Assembly: GCA_029933125.1 (NCBI GenBank) | Contig: JAOZOU010000032.1 | Location: forward strand, 1 to 6,233 | Direction of reading: 5' to 3' | From: a bacterium | Lineage (GTDB): Bacteria > Arandabacterota > Arandabacteria > Arandabacterales > Arandabacteraceae | Length of the DNA: 6,233 nt | Shown: positions 1 to 6,233 of the stretch, one piece after another | Layout of the letters: the number at the start of each line of letters is the position of its first letter | Position numbering within the stretch: position 1 is the stretch's first letter | Translations under genes and position numbers: made by a program | Notes under the pieces: generated by a model | Told to the model about the DNA's origin: nothing | The model's input: the letters and a program-made list of their open reading frames with translations, nothing else | Databases searched by the model: none

Positions 1-455
1 GTATCGTGATCGGATTTTAGGCCGCAGATGTAATAGTACGTCTTTTCAGTCTTCGCAACTTTCTTGCGTTTGAGTACGACCGCATCGAGCGACCGCTCCT
101 TTTTGTATTTGATGTTCAACCGGGTTTTGCCGACCACTTCATAAGGGAAATCTGCACGTTTGAGGTATGCGCCTTCTGAACCTTCCTCTGCGGAATACTT
201 CTTGATAGCATCACGGACGCACTGCTCGGAATGGCAGAGCGTGAACGGTGCGAGTTTGATATGGTCGGTTTCATGGAGCTTTTGATAGAATTTGATGCGT
301 TCGGAATAAGGGAGATTGTGAATGTCCCCGCAGGCAGAAGGCTGGGTGAGCTCATCAAGATCGGGTGCGGAAGAGCTGACTTGCACATTCGGATGAGCTT
401 CCGATTGACGCTTCTGAAGTTCCTGGAGCAAAAGTGCACGAGTCGTTTTATCCAT
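1..455 (-). CDS. C-terminal part of ATP-dependent DNA ligase adenylation domain, with own start; 3' partial
   Basis: The frame is open from ATG 455 to the left edge (151 complete codons). The start is supported by AGGAG 10 bases upstream and by an 8-base overlap with the previous gene (ATGGATAA). Residues 1-41 are a polar helix and linker (TTRALLLQELQKRQSEAH) unlike any ligase I know. From residue 43 the sequence follows the ligase catalytic domain exactly where the 4034-6233 product stops: GDIHNLPYSERIKFYQKL, a spacer, IKLAPF, then motif IV at 94-99 (EGAYLK) within EGAYLKRADFPYEV, and motif V around 113-119 (LNIKYKK), then SLDAVVLKRKKV, the probable lead into the OB fold. It lacks motif I (KxDG) and motif III, so it cannot adenylate alone. 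It may act with the upstream half in trans, or be a remnant. Because the frame is intact I annotate it as a CDS, not a pseudogene. Confidence 0.85.
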   Translation of the reverse strand, partial: MDKTTRALLLQELQKRQSEAHPNVQVSSSAPDLDELTQPSACGDIHNLPYSERIKFYQKLHETDHIKLAPFTLCHSEQCVRDAIKKYSAEEGSEGAYLKRADFPYEVVGKTRLNIKYKKERSLDAVVLKRKKVAKTEKTYYYICGLKSDHD

Positions 456-2400
456 CCGATGAATTCTCCTCTGACTTTTCGGGATTTTTAACTCCTTTAC
501 CTTCTTCTCTTTGCTCTGGCTCAGGTGGTGCGGATGCTTGCTGATTGTCTGGTTCTTGAACTTCATCCACAGACTTTAACAACGCAGAAACTTCTTTTTG
601 CGGCTGGATATCTTCCGCGAGCAGCGAAACGATTGTTTCAGTTGGGAGATTCGAGATAAGGACAGCCTTAAGGAACGGCAGGAACTTCTCAAATGGTGTC
701 TGTTCGATCTCGTGGAGTACAGCGGACAGTTGCTGAAGTGTGCGCTTGACATCCTGCGCAGTGGCGGATTCGTTCTTGATGACTGAATTGAGATCATTCT
801 GCACCTTTTCAAGCTGCTGGATAATTGCGGGGAAGTTCTGACTGAGCTGGCTGAGGTTGGACTGGAGAGTCTCGAGTGATCGCGAATGCTCTTTCTGTGC
901 GGTTGATAGTGACTTTGAAAGCGCCGAACGGATTGAATCTGAAGACTGAGTGAGCTTCGCAAGTGTGGAGTCAAGCGAGCCGGAGAAGCTGGAGAGTTCC
1001 TGTGAAAGTGAGTGAACATCTTGCGAAAGCTTCTGGAGACTGGACTGCGAGTCGGAAGAAGATTTGAGTAACTTTTCACCCGCTTCTGAGTGGCGATCGA
1101 GAATGGACTGAAGCGAAGACATATCCTTCCGGAGTCGGGCGCTCAGGGTCTGGATGAAATCTGAAAGCTGCTGGAATTTCTGGATTGTTGGTAGCGAATC
1201 GAACGACTTGAGGATCTTATCAAGAATGGAGAAGAGCTTATCGAGATCCTTCTTCGTCCAGGGAGAAAGTGGCACCCTTGCGCGGATGCCATAGATTTTT
1301 TCGCCGACTGAACCAGACGCAATATGTTCAGAAAGGGGCTCATCAAGAACCGCGTCGGCAATTTCTTCTACGGTAAGTGCACCACCGCTACCTGTTACCC
1401 AAGCATCATCACCACGATCACGGATGGCTTCAAGAGAATCGGTGGATTTATCAAAGCTGCTCCAGACGCCATCTTTGGAGGCAAGCTTCGCAATGATGGA
1501 ATTATCAACTGGTTCGTTGGATTCGGCGACAGCAACGAGATGATCTAATTTGATGTCTGAAAGTGCGGCATCCACTTCGGCATTCACTTCTGCAGCCGAA
1601 AGATCGTTCCAGGAGTCTTTAAGGTTATCAGTTTTGGCTTTGATAGCGTCGATCTCATCATCTTTAGAAGTTTTGACTGACGAACCCATGATGTTTTCAT
1701 CCGGGAGTTTGGACTGGATTTCATTGGTGTCCGCTTCGATGGCATCTATCTGCGCCTCGGTGGTATCGCTAAGCGAGACTTTCTCACCATCCAGGGTTGC
1801 TTTGACATCATTATCGGTGGAGAATTGCAATTTGTCGGTTTGGGCTTTTACAGCATCGAGATCCGAAGGAATGTTCGCGGAATCTAACTCTGCGAGTCGG
1901 GCTTCGGTGCAGACGCTGGCGAGCGCGGCATTGTCTGTGCCGCGCATGTCATCGTTGGATTTGCAAGCTTCAATTTTATGAGTTGCGGGATCATAACCTT
2001 CATCGGCAAAATCTTTGAGATCAGTTGCGCTTTGTGTCACACCGCCGATTTGCACAACATCAACTTCGAGTTTGTCCGAACCGAAGAGCGAATCATAAAC
2101 ATTGGCAGGCAAAATCATGAATTCATGCCAGACCGGGAGGGCGCCGGACTTATGAACCCACAACTGAAGTCTGCCAAGAGTGTTTGTGTCGGTAGCATCA
2201 AGCGAGCAATTGTAAATCCCGAGCTCATCATGAGTGCAATCAGAACTTTCATTTTTCTGTGCTATATCTCCCCCATTCTTCGAGAGCCTGACATCAGCTT
2301 GTGTGATAGTAAGCGCAGTCTCTGCAGTCTTACCATCCGTATCATCAATAAACGGTCCGATTTTTACGGTTACTGCCGTGTTTTGCTTTAGGAATTGCAT
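448..2400 (-). CDS. Phage tail-fibre-like protein with long coiled coil (650 aa)
   Basis: The start is ATG 2400, one base after the LamG stop, with GGGAGG 6 bases upstream. Residues 1-118 form a beta-rich head domain (TAVTVKIGPFIDDTDG, QADVRLSKNGGDIAQKN, DATDTNTLGRLQLWVHKSGALPVW) that I recognise from many uncharacterised prophage tail proteins. Residues 180-260 carry three spaced copies of a D-A-I-K-A-x-T-D-x-L motif. Residues 341-371 (ALTVEEIADAVLDEPLSEHI, then GSVGEKI) match a motif common in phage tail fibres. From PWTKKDLDKLF (380) to about 600 the chain is Leu/Ser/Gln-rich with heptad-like spacing, a predicted long coiled coil. The last 50 residues are Pro/Glu-rich and probably disordered. 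There is no transmembrane segment or enzymatic motif. A trimeric fibre or baseplate spike is the best guess; a tape-measure-like role is less likely given the head domain. The last eight bases overlap the next gene. Confidence 0.85.
   Translation of the reverse strand: MQFLKQNTAVTVKIGPFIDDTDGKTAETALTITQADVRLSKNGGDIAQKNESSDCTHDELGIYNCSLDATDTNTLGRLQLWVHKSGALPVWHEFMILPANVYDSLFGSDKLEVDVVQIGGVTQSATDLKDFADEGYDPATHKIEACKSNDDMRGTDNAALASVCTEARLAELDSANIPSDLDAVKAQTDKLQFSTDNDVKATLDGEKVSLSDTTEAQIDAIEADTNEIQSKLPDENIMGSSVKTSKDDEIDAIKAKTDNLKDSWNDLSAAEVNAEVDAALSDIKLDHLVAVAESNEPVDNSIIAKLASKDGVWSSFDKSTDSLEAIRDRGDDAWVTGSGGALTVEEIADAVLDEPLSEHIASGSVGEKIYGIRARVPLSPWTKKDLDKLFSILDKILKSFDSLPTIQKFQQLSDFIQTLSARLRKDMSSLQSILDRHSEAGEKLLKSSSDSQSSLQKLSQDVHSLSQELSSFSGSLDSTLAKLTQSSDSIRSALSKSLSTAQKEHSRSLETLQSNLSQLSQNFPAIIQQLEKVQNDLNSVIKNESATAQDVKRTLQQLSAVLHEIEQTPFEKFLPFLKAVLISNLPTETIVSLLAEDIQPQKEVSALLKSVDEVQEPDNQQASAPPEPEQREEGKGVKNPEKSEENSSDG
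466..470 (-). promoter_or_regulatory. Ribosome-binding site for the ligase C-terminal gene
   Basis: AGGAG lies 10 bases before ATG 455, inside the last codons of the tail-fibre-like gene. It indicates that the ligase C-part is translated as its own protein and is not merely a dead remnant. Confidence 0.7.
1621..1857 (-). repeat. Three spaced copies of a D-A-[VI]-[KE]-A-x-T-[DN]-x-[LI] motif in the tail-fibre-like protein
   Basis: DAVKAQTDKL (residues 182-191), DAIEADTNEI (219-228) and DAIKAKTDNL (251-260) recur at 37- and 32-residue spacing in the region between the head domain and the coiled coil. They look like short helical repeats; similar A-K-T-D-N-L units are familiar from tail-fibre proteins. 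The repetition is at protein level; the DNA copies have diverged. Confidence 0.7.
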
Positions 2401-2401
2401 T

Positions 2402-3199
2402 TCATACCTCCCTTAACATACGATAATGATGCATCGCTTGAGGAACAATACCTGCTGGTGGTGCGGCTGCATACAACAGTTCCGCTTCCAGCGGGTGATA
2501 GAACATGCAAAATGGGTCTTGGTAAAGTTGAACGATCTCTGAAGGTTGGAGACAACGATTATAAGCAAATATCCAATGAATTATCCCATTGAAATAGAAA
2601 TAAGTAGAGCTAAGCTTGCCAATCATGCTATTATAATTATTGCCTTCTGGCGTAACTTCTTTTGTTACCGTTCGAGAAGCGGTATTAAGATAGATATGCA
2701 CATTCGATTCATCTACTGTAACAGCAACAAAAAAAGTATCATACGCGGAAAATGTTTCGGTCGATTCTACCAACTGATAAGTGAAGTTGTCTCCCAACTG
2801 TACACGAATAATATCATTATGCAGTTGCAAAGCAATATCTTGAGCAGAACTTGAAGCACTATCTTTCATTAGTATTGACTGGTCCCCGCTTGCGGTATAC
2901 GGAGTTACTTTTGCAACAATACTACCCACAGATTCAAAGTTAACTGGATCGGTATAAATATAATCACCATCGCCTCCAAAATAAATACCTTCTGCCACCC
3001 AGTTTGGTGCTTCTGTTCCAAAAGTACCGTGTTTTAAATTTCCACTCAAATCAAAAACGGTATTGCCACCTCCTTCGTTGAATAACCAGCAGCCGACCAA
3101 ACCACGACTGAGTGGATGGTATGGATTAAGAAGCACACCATACATGGGCTTCTCATATGGATGCCACAATCCTGCGCGATAGCGAGAATATATGCTCAT
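2402..3199 (-). CDS. LamG/concanavalin A-like phage protein, probable receptor-binding or tail-surface lectin (265 aa)
   Basis: This 265-residue protein begins at ATG 3199, overlapping the previous TGA; no strong ribosome-binding site precedes it, so translational coupling is likely. Residues 29-60 (HPLSRGLVGCWLFNEGGG, then DLSGNLKHGT) are the classic opening of a LamG-type jelly roll. EGIYFGGDGDYI (70-81) follows, with strands to about residue 210, and the closing motif AYNRCLQPSEIVQLYQDP (212-229) is the usual end of the fold. The family binds carbohydrates or proteins. In phage tail modules such proteins are often taken to be virion-surface or receptor-binding components, which is inferred here. 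There is no signal peptide. No glycosidase catalytic Glu pair could be recognised. The tail (CMFYHPLEAELLYAAAPPAG) resembles the ends of other phage LamG proteins. The coding DNA is clearly more AT-rich than its neighbours, suggesting a separate origin. Confidence 0.85.
   Translation of the reverse strand: MSIYSRYRAGLWHPYEKPMYGVLLNPYHPLSRGLVGCWLFNEGGGNTVFDLSGNLKHGTFGTEAPNWVAEGIYFGGDGDYIYTDPVNFESVGSIVAKVTPYTASGDQSILMKDSASSSAQDIALQLHNDIIRVQLGDNFTYQLVESTETFSAYDTFFVAVTVDESNVHIYLNTASRTVTKEVTPEGNNYNSMIGKLSSTYFYFNGIIHWIFAYNRCLQPSEIVQLYQDPFCMFYHPLEAELLYAAAPPAGIVPQAMHHYRMLREV
2407..2412 (-). promoter_or_regulatory. Ribosome-binding site for the tail-fibre-like protein
   Basis: GGGAGG lies 6 bases before ATG 2400 and sits inside the last codons of the LamG gene, supporting both the start and translational coupling. 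Confidence 0.8.
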
Positions 3200-3642
3200 A
3201 CTATTTCTTGGGAGTATAATCTGTACTTGACAGTATTACCGCTTGATGCGAGAGCTACACCTGTCTTGTTCTTGATTAGCAGTTTACCCTGATCGGGTGT
3301 GGTAAGTAAAAACCTCGCAAATACTCGTTGCGCAGCATTCACCTCACGCAGCGGCACAATTTTATCGGGCGCTCTTGCGGGCGTTACTGAATCAGACCCA
3401 TCCTCGAAATTCGTGCCGTCTGTCCTTGCAAGTAACCAAATATAAATCGCCGGATTAGTTTGCGCGCTGAGGTCAACCGTGTTGAGATAAATCTCAACAT
3501 CCATATAGAGCTTGCGATCTGTGCCTGTGGATGTGAAATCAATCGCTGAGCCAAGTTTGTTACCATCATCCGCTAAGGAATTTAATTCTGTGCTCAGATA
3601 CGTTACGACCGTATCATATGCGGTCCATCTCAGTTCTGACAT
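3196..3642 (-). CDS. Conserved phage tail-associated protein, unknown function (148 aa)
   Basis: This 148-residue protein starts at the ATG at 3642, supported by a near-ideal AGGAGGTGA ribosome-binding site 10 bases upstream. It is predicted mostly beta: YMDVEIYL (46-53), AIYIWLLAR (65-73), VFARFLLT (107-114) and KLLIKNKTG (120-128), ending in a strand-rich YRLYSQEI. The helix before these (TVVTYLSTELNSLADDGNKLG) and the phrase DGTNFEDGSDSVTPARAPD followed by PLREVNAAQR are features I associate with uncharacterised proteins of phage tail modules. It resembles a jelly-roll or virion decoration fold, but that is a guess. It overlaps the LamG gene by ATGA at 3199-3196, so the two are probably translationally coupled and may work together on the virion tip. 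No enzymatic motif is visible. Confidence 0.82.
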   Translation of the reverse strand: MSELRWTAYDTVVTYLSTELNSLADDGNKLGSAIDFTSTGTDRKLYMDVEIYLNTVDLSAQTNPAIYIWLLARTDGTNFEDGSDSVTPARAPDKIVPLREVNAAQRVFARFLLTTPDQGKLLIKNKTGVALASSGNTVKYRLYSQEIV

Positions 3643-3652
3643 TTGTTTTCTG

Positions 3653-3661
3653 TCACCTCCT
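3653..3661 (-). promoter_or_regulatory. Near-ideal Shine-Dalgarno for the 148-aa protein
   Basis: AGGAGGTGA is fully complementary to the usual 16S rRNA 3' end and lies 10 bases before ATG 3642. It occupies most of the 20-base gap after the previous stop (3665-3663). It is the strongest such site in the window and suggests high expression of this gene and the coupled LamG gene. Confidence 0.85.
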
Positions 3662-3662
3662 G

Positions 3663-4037
3663 CTATTTAACATCTCTTTTATACCCCCACCATTCAAGTT
3701 CGATCTTTAATCGCGTAAGAGCTTTGGTTTTGAGTTCAATGAATTTCGCATCCAACTCATCACGTCTCTGTGCATTGGTGAGCGAAAGCGAACTGAATCG
3801 CACGGATGTAAACACTTCATAGACTTCGCCGTTCTGTACCTGCGCGAGCTCCTCCGAAGTAGAAAGTGGTGATTTGCTTTCGATTGTGCCGGTGGGCGAT
3901 TCGTGAGAAAGTTTCTCGACCAGCGCGGTGCGATAGCTTTTGCCGGCTTGGTTTTGTAAATCGGGAACAGGAATGCGAAAGACAACAGTAGCGGTCTTCA
4001 TATCGGGTGAAACCGTAAGAACATGATAGTCGCTCAT
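3663..4037 (-). CDS. Conserved small phage tail-region protein, unknown function (124 aa)
   Basis: This is a 124-residue soluble, acidic/basic mixed protein with no signal peptide or membrane segment. I chose the ATG at 4037 because it overlaps the upstream TGA in an ATGA arrangement and has GGGAG 8 bases before it; an in-frame ATG at 4061 would add eight residues and deepen the overlap. The N-terminal part (residues 4-25, HVLTVSPDMKTATVVFRIPV) reads as two beta strands. The centre holds VYEVFTSVRFSS, and the C-terminal third is helical (TNAQRRDELDAKFIELKTKA) and ends with LEWWGYKRD. From memory this pattern (a ValSerProAsp start, FRIP, RTALVE, then VRFSS-LTNAQRR) matches uncharacterised proteins encoded beside tail-fibre and LamG genes in prophages. 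A structural or assembly role in the tail or baseplate is inferred from its neighbours only. Confidence 0.8.
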   Translation of the reverse strand: MSDYHVLTVSPDMKTATVVFRIPVPDLQNQAGKSYRTALVEKLSHESPTGTIESKSPLSTSEELAQVQNGEVYEVFTSVRFSSLSLTNAQRRDELDAKFIELKTKALTRLKIELEWWGYKRDVK

Positions 4038-6233
4038 TTTTCGGGCTCCCAATAAAGACAATCATAGACATTGAATATTAAATCTTTTTCCTCGGGCTGC
4101 GGCTTGCTTGCATTCAATATGCCCGCAGTGACCGCCCGGGGCTGATGCTTGCCATTCTTCCAGAGCTCAATCTCGCCGCACACGATGAAGCTGCCGGGCT
4201 GCTGCTGAAATTCCTTGACAAGTGTCGGGCAGTTCCTGGTGACATCTGTGCCATCTTCGGTGAGAATGAGAACTTTATCTCCACTCTTGTGTACCTGACA
4301 ATGAGTGCCATCATATTTCTTCTGGATGTAGATGCCAATATCGAACCAGTTGTCTTTCCGCGTTTTGAGGACTTCAATCACTGAATCCACCGAATAGATT
4401 TCGCCCTTCTGACGCCCATGCATGGGCTTCAACATCGGGAACCACTGGAAGAGCTTGATCGCACGCTGTGCCATCTCCTGCCGGACTTTCTCACTGCGTG
4501 CTACCGCCGCAAGGTCGGCAAGCTCGACGAAGTTGGTGAACGGACCGGAGAAAGAGTCATCAAGAACCTGAATCCTGCCTTTGTATTCCGGAAATGCGCG
4601 CTCGATACGCCAGCGTGTGAGCAGAAAGAGCGAATCGGAATGGATGAACCGCTGCACTTCGATGAGCAGATCAGCGAGCTGGTCTTCGCCGAGTTTGTAG
4701 CATTTGATGATCGCGCGATCAAGCGCTGTGAGTAGCGGCGTGGGATCGCGCGCCTTCACGAGGATGTCGATATCGCCGGTTGTGTGTCGCCAGTTGGCGA
4801 GCGAGCCGACGAGCAGGATAAAAGGCTTTCTGAGATAGAAAGTGCTCCACTTCTCGAGAAAGTCATCGAGTTCAAGTGGTTCAAAGTGAGGAGAAACGTT
4901 GCCGGGGTAAATCGGGAGAGTGGTTTCGGGTGGACTCTCGGAGTTTTCTTCCTGTTCGTCAGACCAATCTTCAGGGTCTTCGACACCAGATTCTGATGAA
5001 GAGAGCCACTGGTGATTTCGGATCGTGATGCGCCGAAATGTGCGAATAAGATCACCTGAACCTTCCAAAGTGCAGATGAGTTTCTGCCTGCCGGGGACGA
5101 AAAAAGTGCTGCTGAAGGAGATGGTAAAAGAGGCAACACCGCTTTCGTTGGTGGTTGCTGTGAGCTCTTTGTGAGTTGAGAGATTGACGAGTTTGAACGT
5201 CAGAGGTTCACGGATGACCTCTGATGTGTCTTTCGATACGAGCGAGAATTCGAAAGTGACTGAATAATCATGGAGGATGGTCCTGGCGTTGATTCGGACC
5301 GATGGACGCATTTTGAGTGAGAGATGATAAGTGAAATTGGGTCTGACATAAGCCGAACGAATCTTGTCATAGAAGAAGCGGTGTTTGAGTGTGACTTTGA
5401 CTCTGTGGGTTGTCCGGAGTTTGTCTGCTGGAATAGGGATCGGAACAGTAGCCGGAGTTTTGAAACCTGAATCGGAGCCGTCTATAAGGATGGCAGCATC
5501 CGGCGGAAGTGATTCGACGCTCACGTAGCCTTCAAGTGTGGTGAAGTCCGCGGAAGGAACCGGGACATAATCGCGATCACCAAAGATACGGACAGCCTCG
5601 GTAACCCACGGGAAGGCTGCACAGGCGATGTCGAAAGCATCACCAGCAGAATGACCATCATGAATAGCGGAAAAAAGCGAATTCTGCCAGCTCTGAGAGT
5701 GTGACCATGCATCTGGATGCTCATGCATGTTGTAATAGCCGATAATGGCGAAGCTTGAAGTGCGACCTTGAGCGAACGCGTGCGCGAAAGAGCCGTCACC
5801 GGTATCCACAAGCGCACCACAATGACCGAGGAAAATGAAATTGAAACTCGGATCTGAAGACTGACGGGATTGGAGCGCGGAGTCAATGGAAGAAGCAGAA
5901 ACCAGTTCATGACCATTGAACCACAATTCGGAACTGCCATGCCCGAATTCATAGAGGAAACTGCCATAAGAATGAGATTTGAGGCAGTTCAGATATTCTT
6001 CAGTCGTGGGAGTATACTGGGTGAACGGCGGCGATCCAAACGAAGAGAACCAGGTGGCAGCATTGCGCCACCAGGGACGCCAGACATCATAACACTCGCT
6101 ATCGACTTCGTGACACCCGGAAAAGACAAGGGAATTGTGTGGCGGCGGTGTGCCAGTTCCAATTTCTTCGCCAGTATAGGCATCAATGAGATGTATGAGA
6201 TAATCATCTTCAGAGAAGACTTGATAACAGAGA
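4034..6233 (-). CDS. Clan CD (C25/caspase-like) peptidase - PEGA - Ig-like - nucleotidyltransferase - N-terminal DNA ligase chimera, 5' partial
   Basis: The frame is open from the right edge of the window to a TGA at 4036-4034, giving 732 visible residues; the true start lies outside. The TTG at 5926 is not the start, because homologous-looking sequence continues upstream of it. Visible residues 1-25 resemble the end of a PepSY-type propeptide (IDAYTGEEIG). A peptidase region runs to about 225: the presumed catalytic His is H98 (YEFGHGSSELWF) and the presumed Cys is C138 (FIFLGHCGAL), the His-Gly then Cys order of clan CD enzymes such as gingipains. A later FGDRDY resembles the FGDP motif of C25. 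Then come a PEGA-like domain (about 235-308), an Ig-like domain (about 312-405, with ESGVASFTI), and an acidic Ser/Glu/Pro linker (about 409-447). A Pol beta-type nucleotidyltransferase follows (about 454-590; GSLANWRHTTGDIDILV, the GS...DxD metal site). The protein ends in an ATP-dependent ligase adenylation domain: KPM, then KYDG with presumed nucleotidyl-lysine K639, CGEIEL (motif III) and YDCLYW. Motifs IV, V and the OB fold are absent here. Domain calls are by eye; the C25 assignment is the least certain, the ligase part the firmest. Confidence 0.85.
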   Translation of the reverse strand, partial: LCYQVFSEDDYLIHLIDAYTGEEIGTGTPPPHNSLVFSGCHEVDSECYDVWRPWWRNAATWFSSFGSPPFTQYTPTTEEYLNCLKSHSYGSFLYEFGHGSSELWFNGHELVSASSIDSALQSRQSSDPSFNFIFLGHCGALVDTGDGSFAHAFAQGRTSSFAIIGYYNMHEHPDAWSHSQSWQNSLFSAIHDGHSAGDAFDIACAAFPWVTEAVRIFGDRDYVPVPSADFTTLEGYVSVESLPPDAAILIDGSDSGFKTPATVPIPIPADKLRTTHRVKVTLKHRFFYDKIRSAYVRPNFTYHLSLKMRPSVRINARTILHDYSVTFEFSLVSKDTSEVIREPLTFKLVNLSTHKELTATTNESGVASFTISFSSTFFVPGRQKLICTLEGSGDLIRTFRRITIRNHQWLSSSESGVEDPEDWSDEQEENSESPPETTLPIYPGNVSPHFEPLELDDFLEKWSTFYLRKPFILLVGSLANWRHTTGDIDILVKARDPTPLLTALDRAIIKCYKLGEDQLADLLIEVQRFIHSDSLFLLTRWRIERAFPEYKGRIQVLDDSFSGPFTNFVELADLAAVARSEKVRQEMAQRAIKLFQWFPMLKPMHGRQKGEIYSVDSVIEVLKTRKDNWFDIGIYIQKKYDGTHCQVHKSGDKVLILTEDGTDVTRNCPTLVKEFQQQPGSFIVCGEIELWKNGKHQPRAVTAGILNASKPQPEEKDLIFNVYDCLYWEPEK
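4046..4050 (-). promoter_or_regulatory. Ribosome-binding site for the 124-aa protein
   Basis: GGGAG lies 8 bases before ATG 4037, inside the Trp-Glu codons near the end of the ligase N-part. It favours the 4037 start over the in-frame ATG at 4061. Confidence 0.6.

Follow-up and report, generated by a model that had tools for sequence, protein, structure and literature searches.

The window, that is, the whole stretch of DNA analysed here, is the complete contig C48 (6,233 bp) of genome bin G000 (3.2 Mb in 176 contigs), and all of its genes of interest lie on the minus strand. Two of them each encode one part of a DNA ligase catalytic domain and are referred to below as the N-half and the C-half, with four insert genes between them. 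The features are listed in the order of transcription; C166 is another contig of the same bin and L002 a second virus with the same split, both described below.

6179..6233, no strand: 55 bases identical to the end of C166, a probable shared node of the assembly graph
4034..6232, minus: N-half gene, an ORF with 732 visible codons, its 5' end past the contig edge and no start seen
4046..4336, minus: first half of the ligase adenylation domain (PF01068 positions 21-126) with motifs I, III and IIIa; motif I lysine codon at 4316-4318
4046..4050, minus: GGGAG, a Shine-Dalgarno-like site (putative function) in the final N-half codons, 8 nt upstream of the next start; the L002 equivalent is GGGAGG
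3663..4037, minus: insert gene 1, 124 aa, without a family; its ATG overlaps the N-half stop (ATGA)
3196..3642, minus: insert gene 2, 148 aa, without a family
2402..3199, minus: insert gene 3, 265 aa, with a LamG/concanavalin-like lectin domain (Laminin_G_3, 39.6 bits); phrog_22373
448..2400, minus: insert gene 4, 650 aa, resembling a Microcystis phage protein in its N-terminal part and a coiled coil of L002 in its C-terminal part
466..470, minus: AGGAG, the Shine-Dalgarno-like site of the C-half (putative function), 10 nt upstream of its ATG
330..455, minus: N-terminal extension of the C-half, 42 aa, homologous to that of the L002 C-half and not present in fused homologues
3..329, minus: second half of the ligase adenylation domain (PF01068 positions 130-204) with motifs IV and V; the contig ends before motif VI

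The N-half gene encodes, in order, an N-terminal domain, a PEGA domain (21.3 bits), a nucleotidyltransferase-like part and the first half of the ligase domain, and ends ...NVYDCLYWEPEK before its stop codon (4034-4036). The nucleotidyltransferase-like stretch (GSLANW..GDIDIL) was read by eye and has no profile match, while the ligase part scores 40.7 bits against PF01068 in a Pfam profile search (cut-off 26.2). It contains KYDG (lysine codon 4318-4316), CGEIEL from 4180 and YDCLYW from 4066. The C-half starts at 455, takes up the domain at GDIHNLPYSERI from 329, and continues through EGAYLK from 176 and LNIKYKK from 119. The ORFs, strands and motif positions of a preliminary description of this DNA proved exact on re-checking, and its central claim, that one ligase catalytic domain is encoded by two intact genes, is borne out by the profiles. 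Along the 204 positions of PF01068 the N-half covers 21-126 and the C-half 130-204, which adjoin and do not overlap, and in PHROG 114 the corresponding segments are 240-336 and 343-427. Alone, the C-half scores 15.7 bits against PF01068, under the Pfam cut-off of 26.2, as expected for a match of only 75 profile positions; in PHROGs it is significant at 4e-9. It is 90-94% identical to the corresponding part of intact homologues, with EGAYLK and LNIKYKK aligned in register with the fused proteins, and the last 203 aa of the N-half are 95% identical to an intact 1033-aa ORF of C166.

Neither half contains a stop or frameshift, and motifs I, III, IIIa, IV and V are all present, in agreement with the earlier statement that no damage is visible. 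In the catalytic core that can be checked, nothing is absent or duplicated at the join. Since the window is the whole contig, the C-half is cut off at the contig end, ahead of motif VI; its counterpart in L002 has 668 aa and contains motif VI as WWAPRVVMLRTDK, and an OB domain is included in the fold match of a fused homologue. The catalytic domain is not one polypeptide in either virus: it lies in two ORFs that are 3.6 kb apart in the window and 2.1 kb apart in L002.

L002 (IMGVR_UViG_3300021513_000010) is an independent viral contig of 41.5 kb, and it has the same split at the same place, so that one check proposed in the preliminary description, a look for this split in related contigs, came out in favour of its claim. 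Its N-half has 421 aa and ends NVYDCVYWEE; three ORFs of 231, 95 and 388 aa follow, and the C-half then resumes at GDIHDRPYSERI (GDIHDRPYSER), continuing over motifs IV, V and VI into a phosphoesterase-like part. There is no other PF01068 match in the 41.5 kb of L002. DNA identity to the window is 75% in the N-half and 80% in the C-half, the N-half stop codon is TAG in L002 and TGA in the window, and the cassettes between the halves are partly homologous, with most of their genes different. In both split viruses (n = 2, the window and L002) the N-half ends in the codons TATTGGGAG, which double as a Shine-Dalgarno-like site for the first cassette gene, and AGGAG or AAGGAGG precedes the ATG of each C-half; judging by their sequence, these sites would bind ribosomes. 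The N-terminal extensions of the two C-halves (RALLLQELQKRQ in the window, RSILLQELRRRQ in L002) align with a local score of 53, which 0 of 5000 shuffles reach.

Because an independent contig has the same split at the same place, the split is not an assembly error. A chimaera of two viral genomes from one sample does have a point of departure in the identical 55-base end shared by C48 (6179-6233) and C166 (its region L010, 3047-3101), where the graph has probably tangled these viruses. However, the common 55 nt are at the far end of the contig, away from both split junctions, and the split is reproduced in L002 with diverged DNA, another stop codon and other cassette genes, so that we give a chimaera next to no weight. 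Most likely C48 (split) and C166 (fused) come from two related viruses in the same sample, and their assembly graph met at the shared bases.

The DNA between the halves had been described as a four-gene tail module. The four ORFs are present, but the tail label is well supported for none of them. The first ~120 residues of the 650-aa protein resemble a hypothetical protein of a Microcystis phage (51% over 118 aa), whose gene has a lytic transglycosylase gene on one side and a lysin gene on the other. The C-terminal half of the 650-aa protein is coiled coil and shares 58% identity with the product of the final cassette gene in L002; its tape-measure-like scores are weak and probably reflect coiled-coil bias. 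No counterpart of the LamG, 148-aa or 124-aa gene turned up among annotated phages, and the coiled-coil gene does not occur in the fused records and has no further relative in the viral contigs. GC3 is 0.31-0.49 in the insert genes, against 0.55-0.64 in the ligase parts and 0.55-0.67 in the head genes of L002; a GC3 below that of the ligase and most head genes would fit an accessory origin of the cassette. Our best guess, which is tentative, is that these are virion-surface or tail-fibre genes. PADLOC gave no defence-system match of note.

If the cassette were spliced or excised, as an intron, an intein or a site-specific element would be, a single ligase could be restored, and the uninterrupted gene of C166 at the same place might be taken to show the restored form. 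C166 is, however, 77-87.5% identical to the window in DNA (13-23% different), and is therefore neither an excised form nor a pre-insertion copy of the same molecule. Rfam returned neither an intron nor any other structured RNA, and the cassettes of the window and of L002 lack flanking direct repeats. Searches of Pfam and PHROGs detected neither an integrase nor an endonuclease family among the four insert genes of the window, and no endonuclease family among the three of L002. A split intein was also considered; the extension of the C-half is only 42 aa, the N-half lacks a matching one, and GDIHN is not an intein end, because it is conserved in fused homologues. The C-half, moreover, carries an added extension that opens with a separate start codon. 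A removable element is for these reasons very improbable.

The protein is uninterrupted in C166, in the viral contigs L001, L016 and L017, in L013 (QNCM01000029.1), a contig of a Guaymas Basin Omnitrophota MAG, in the ANMV-1 virus and in more distant relatives. Because the gene is fused in all of the named relatives, the split state is derived, and the fused state is taken as ancestral. In viral contigs the gene lies between the portal gene, sometimes followed by accessory genes, and the gene that precedes the major capsid gene (terminase, portal and capsid genes were identified by PHROGs). Placed in this neighbourhood, the ligase makes up the central part of a large protein from the head cluster of tailed viruses, and is not the stand-alone enzyme that it had been taken for. 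The genes of this protein that we located are as follows.

L001, 9404-12598: head-cluster ligase protein gene
L013, 4924-8598: head-cluster ligase protein gene
L016, 9986-13111: head-cluster ligase protein gene
L017, 9923-14734: head-cluster ligase protein gene
L014, 3200-5797: head-cluster ligase protein gene

The proteins of this tailed-virus group, encoded in or near the head cluster, have 866-1604 aa and combine nucleotidyltransferase-like, ligase, OB and LigD-phosphoesterase-like parts, with a homologue in ANMV-1. Their N-terminal side is a spot of domain swapping (window 4925-6232; L010; L017, 10285-11950). The window, C166 and L017 have the N-terminal domain with PEGA, L013 has PEGA repeats, and L001, L002 and L016 have neither. 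GHG and GHCGA stretches in the N-terminal domain of the first three are reminiscent of a cysteine peptidase without a profile match, and that assignment found no support in Pfam, NCBIfam or PDB sequences. In some relatives the interval between portal and ligase contains accessory genes, including PEGA-domain and staphylococcal-nuclease-like proteins (L001, 7688-9012), and thus also collects cargo. A radical-SAM-like gene (CCYCQNY motif, read by eye) directly precedes the terminase in L002 (5252-6043), L016 (5576-6364) and L017 (1910-2707). In the same genus, a 1343-aa ORF in a viral-looking region (L011, 7528-11559, in contig C244 of bin G001) begins ligase-like and seems by eye to run on into a DNA adenine methylase-like and then a protease-like part.

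Further members were sought in 60 related genomes, where only distant matches were found, and in 8 genomes of the phylum, where there were none. Close relatives of the same virus were binned both with the Omnitrophota MAG (L013) and with G000 (C48 and C166), and G000 contains no portal gene, so host assignment by binning is unsafe. A search of G000 for a bacterial SSU gave no match, a result that carries no information on the domain of the host.

The AlphaFold model of the fused L001 region has a mean pLDDT of 77.7, with values >90 around the position of the break, and in Foldseek it matches the ATP-dependent ligases of Thermococcus, Archaeoglobus, human and T4 (E down to 5e-22). The break falls in a short turn at about model residues 293-296, after the strand 282-292. 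The same loop is naturally variable in length, with extra residues in L020 and L021 in the alignment, and such a turn may be the best place for the domain to tolerate synthesis in two pieces. Modelled alone, the C-half gives a poor structure (pLDDT 48, its ligase segment included), which would agree, weakly because its alignment is also thinner, with a need for the N-half.

Both halves are under strong purifying selection (dN/dS 0.03-0.1), although, were the split young, part of this signal would be older than the split itself. For the window against fused C166, dN/dS is 0.035 in the N-half (dS 0.52) and 0.03 in the C-half (dS 0.81). L002 against fused L017 gives 0.095 and 0.082, much like the 0.074 and 0.093 of the comparison between fused L016 and fused L017. 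The last cassette gene is also constrained (window against L002: 58% identity, dS 2.35, dN/dS 0.12). The low dN/dS in both halves argues against a recently broken gene, in which the insertion would have destroyed the ligase and left its remnants to decay. Intact copies do coexist in the same bin, and a recent break would still give low dN/dS. The split genes have nevertheless reached a large distance, dS 0.4-0.8, to their nearest fused relative, at dN/dS of 0.03-0.1 and without stops or frameshifts, and the two lineages share the same split and the same junction type, with separate starts and a common extension in their C-halves. More split viruses with intact halves at larger distance would also speak against decay, and L002 is in part such a case. 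Decay is on this evidence unlikely.

In the N-half tree the window and C166 are sisters (98/97) and L002 joins L016 and L017 (100/100), while in the C-half tree the window falls in a clade with C166, L001 and L013, and L002 again with L016 and L017. The AU test rejects a clade of the window and L002 (N-half, p 1e-6; C-half, p 8e-4), and identity along both halves is mosaic. The split state thus either originated twice at one position or moved from virus to virus by recombination, together with its cassette. The two split viruses share a homologous last cassette gene and a homologous extension, yet their ligase halves fall into two clades; recombination between viruses that coexist is therefore the probable route by which the split cassette spreads. 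The divergence of the cassettes is old (dS ~2.4, near saturation), which makes a recent direct exchange between the window and L002 unlikely.

We consider it likely that an accessory cassette was inserted into an intact ligase gene, leaving two separately initiated cistrons whose products are predicted to rebuild the adenylation domain non-covalently. A cassette of probable virion-surface genes would have entered the ancestrally intact gene at the codons of the turn between motif IIIa and motif IV, and the two parts would have become separate, independently initiated cistrons of what is apparently one operon. To the enzyme the N-half would bring motifs I, III and IIIa, and the C-half motifs IV and V and, in L002, motif VI (OB domain) with the LigD-phosphoesterase-like part. 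The two polypeptides would associate inside the adenylation domain into an active, or at least ATP-binding, ligase, and the conserved N-terminal extension of the C-half may aid docking. The groundwork of this reading is supported directly (the split, its recurrence in a second viral lineage, the complementary motifs, purifying selection, separate starts and the derived state), and the enzyme is probably assembled from two separately made halves. The preliminary description had offered an insertion or a two-subunit ligase as alternatives; each is partly right, since the ancestral gene was fused and took up a cassette, and its halves now resemble maintained subunits. A step further, and no more than tentatively, the break site may be a landing place for swappable virion-surface cassettes in a natural two-polypeptide ligase, where cassette, C-half start and extension would travel together by recombination and the ligase gene would supply the homologous flanks.

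An intact homologous ligase (C166) coexists in the sample and the bin also has a ligase of its own. The C166 copy is a homologue in a different viral genome and leaves the claim of one divided domain standing, but with these enzymes at hand a loss of split-ligase activity could be tolerated. The halves might accordingly be kept in other roles, the N-half through its nucleotidyltransferase-like and PEGA segments and the C-half through its phosphoesterase-like one, both perhaps as structural proteins of the virion, with the ligase fold preserved only for stability or binding. The position in the head cluster near portal and capsid, the fusion to PEGA and other variable domains, and the intact ligases in the genome bin and in neighbouring viruses would all suit such roles. 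Yet both split viruses have kept catalytic motifs I, III, IIIa, IV and V, and half-domain ligase folds would not be expected to be stable alone, and we regard this course of events as rather doubtful.

Among known ligases, a close one is the ATP-dependent DNA ligase of the ANMV-1 virus (AJP62006, 866 aa), which is homologous over 89% of the query at 31% identity and has the nucleotidyltransferase-like, ligase and C-terminal parts in the same order, but as a single uninterrupted protein. The archaeal and eukaryotic ATP-dependent ligases (Thermococcus, human LIG1) and that of T4 are alike in adenylation domain and OB fold, by sequence and structure, but are single chains; no separate DNA-binding domain was recognised here, and there are extra viral domains on both sides. 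Bacterial LigD likewise joins a ligase domain to a segment like the one found here, the 3'-phosphoesterase (PE) domain (TIGR02777, 24.7 bits, far under the curated cut-off of 144 bits and at positions 11-56 of 156 only), but the domain order differs and no primase-polymerase domain was seen. In the literature searched, a limited open-access set, there was no earlier description of a split ATP-dependent DNA ligase. Should the two halves be active together, they would make up a natural ATP-dependent DNA ligase divided within its adenylation domain, and the position of the break could be taken over directly in the design of conditional ligases for laboratory use. Such an enzyme would further mean that viral enzymes tolerate structural gene cassettes without a homing endonuclease, and the origin and spread of fragmented genes could be tested on this example.

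The closest parallel to the arrangement is found in the genes-in-pieces of T4-like phages. The NrdA gene of Aeromonas phage Aeh1 is split by mobE and its product is still functional, the gp43A/43B DNA polymerase forms an active enzyme from two polypeptides (an untranslated spacer may have come first), and the T4 topoisomerase is split into gp39 and gp60, with mobA; all three splits are associated with homing endonuclease genes (PMC2988022). As in those cases, a contiguous viral enzyme gene has here been cut by inserted DNA into two cistrons, and relatives (C166, L001, L013, L016 and L017) have the uninterrupted gene at the same place. A two-piece ligase function is likely, agrees with the selection measured on both halves, and would work as in the known genes-in-pieces. 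The present case differs in that the enzyme is a DNA ligase, that the insert consists of three or four virion-like genes with no recognisable endonuclease, and that the same split occurs in two viral clades with different cargo.
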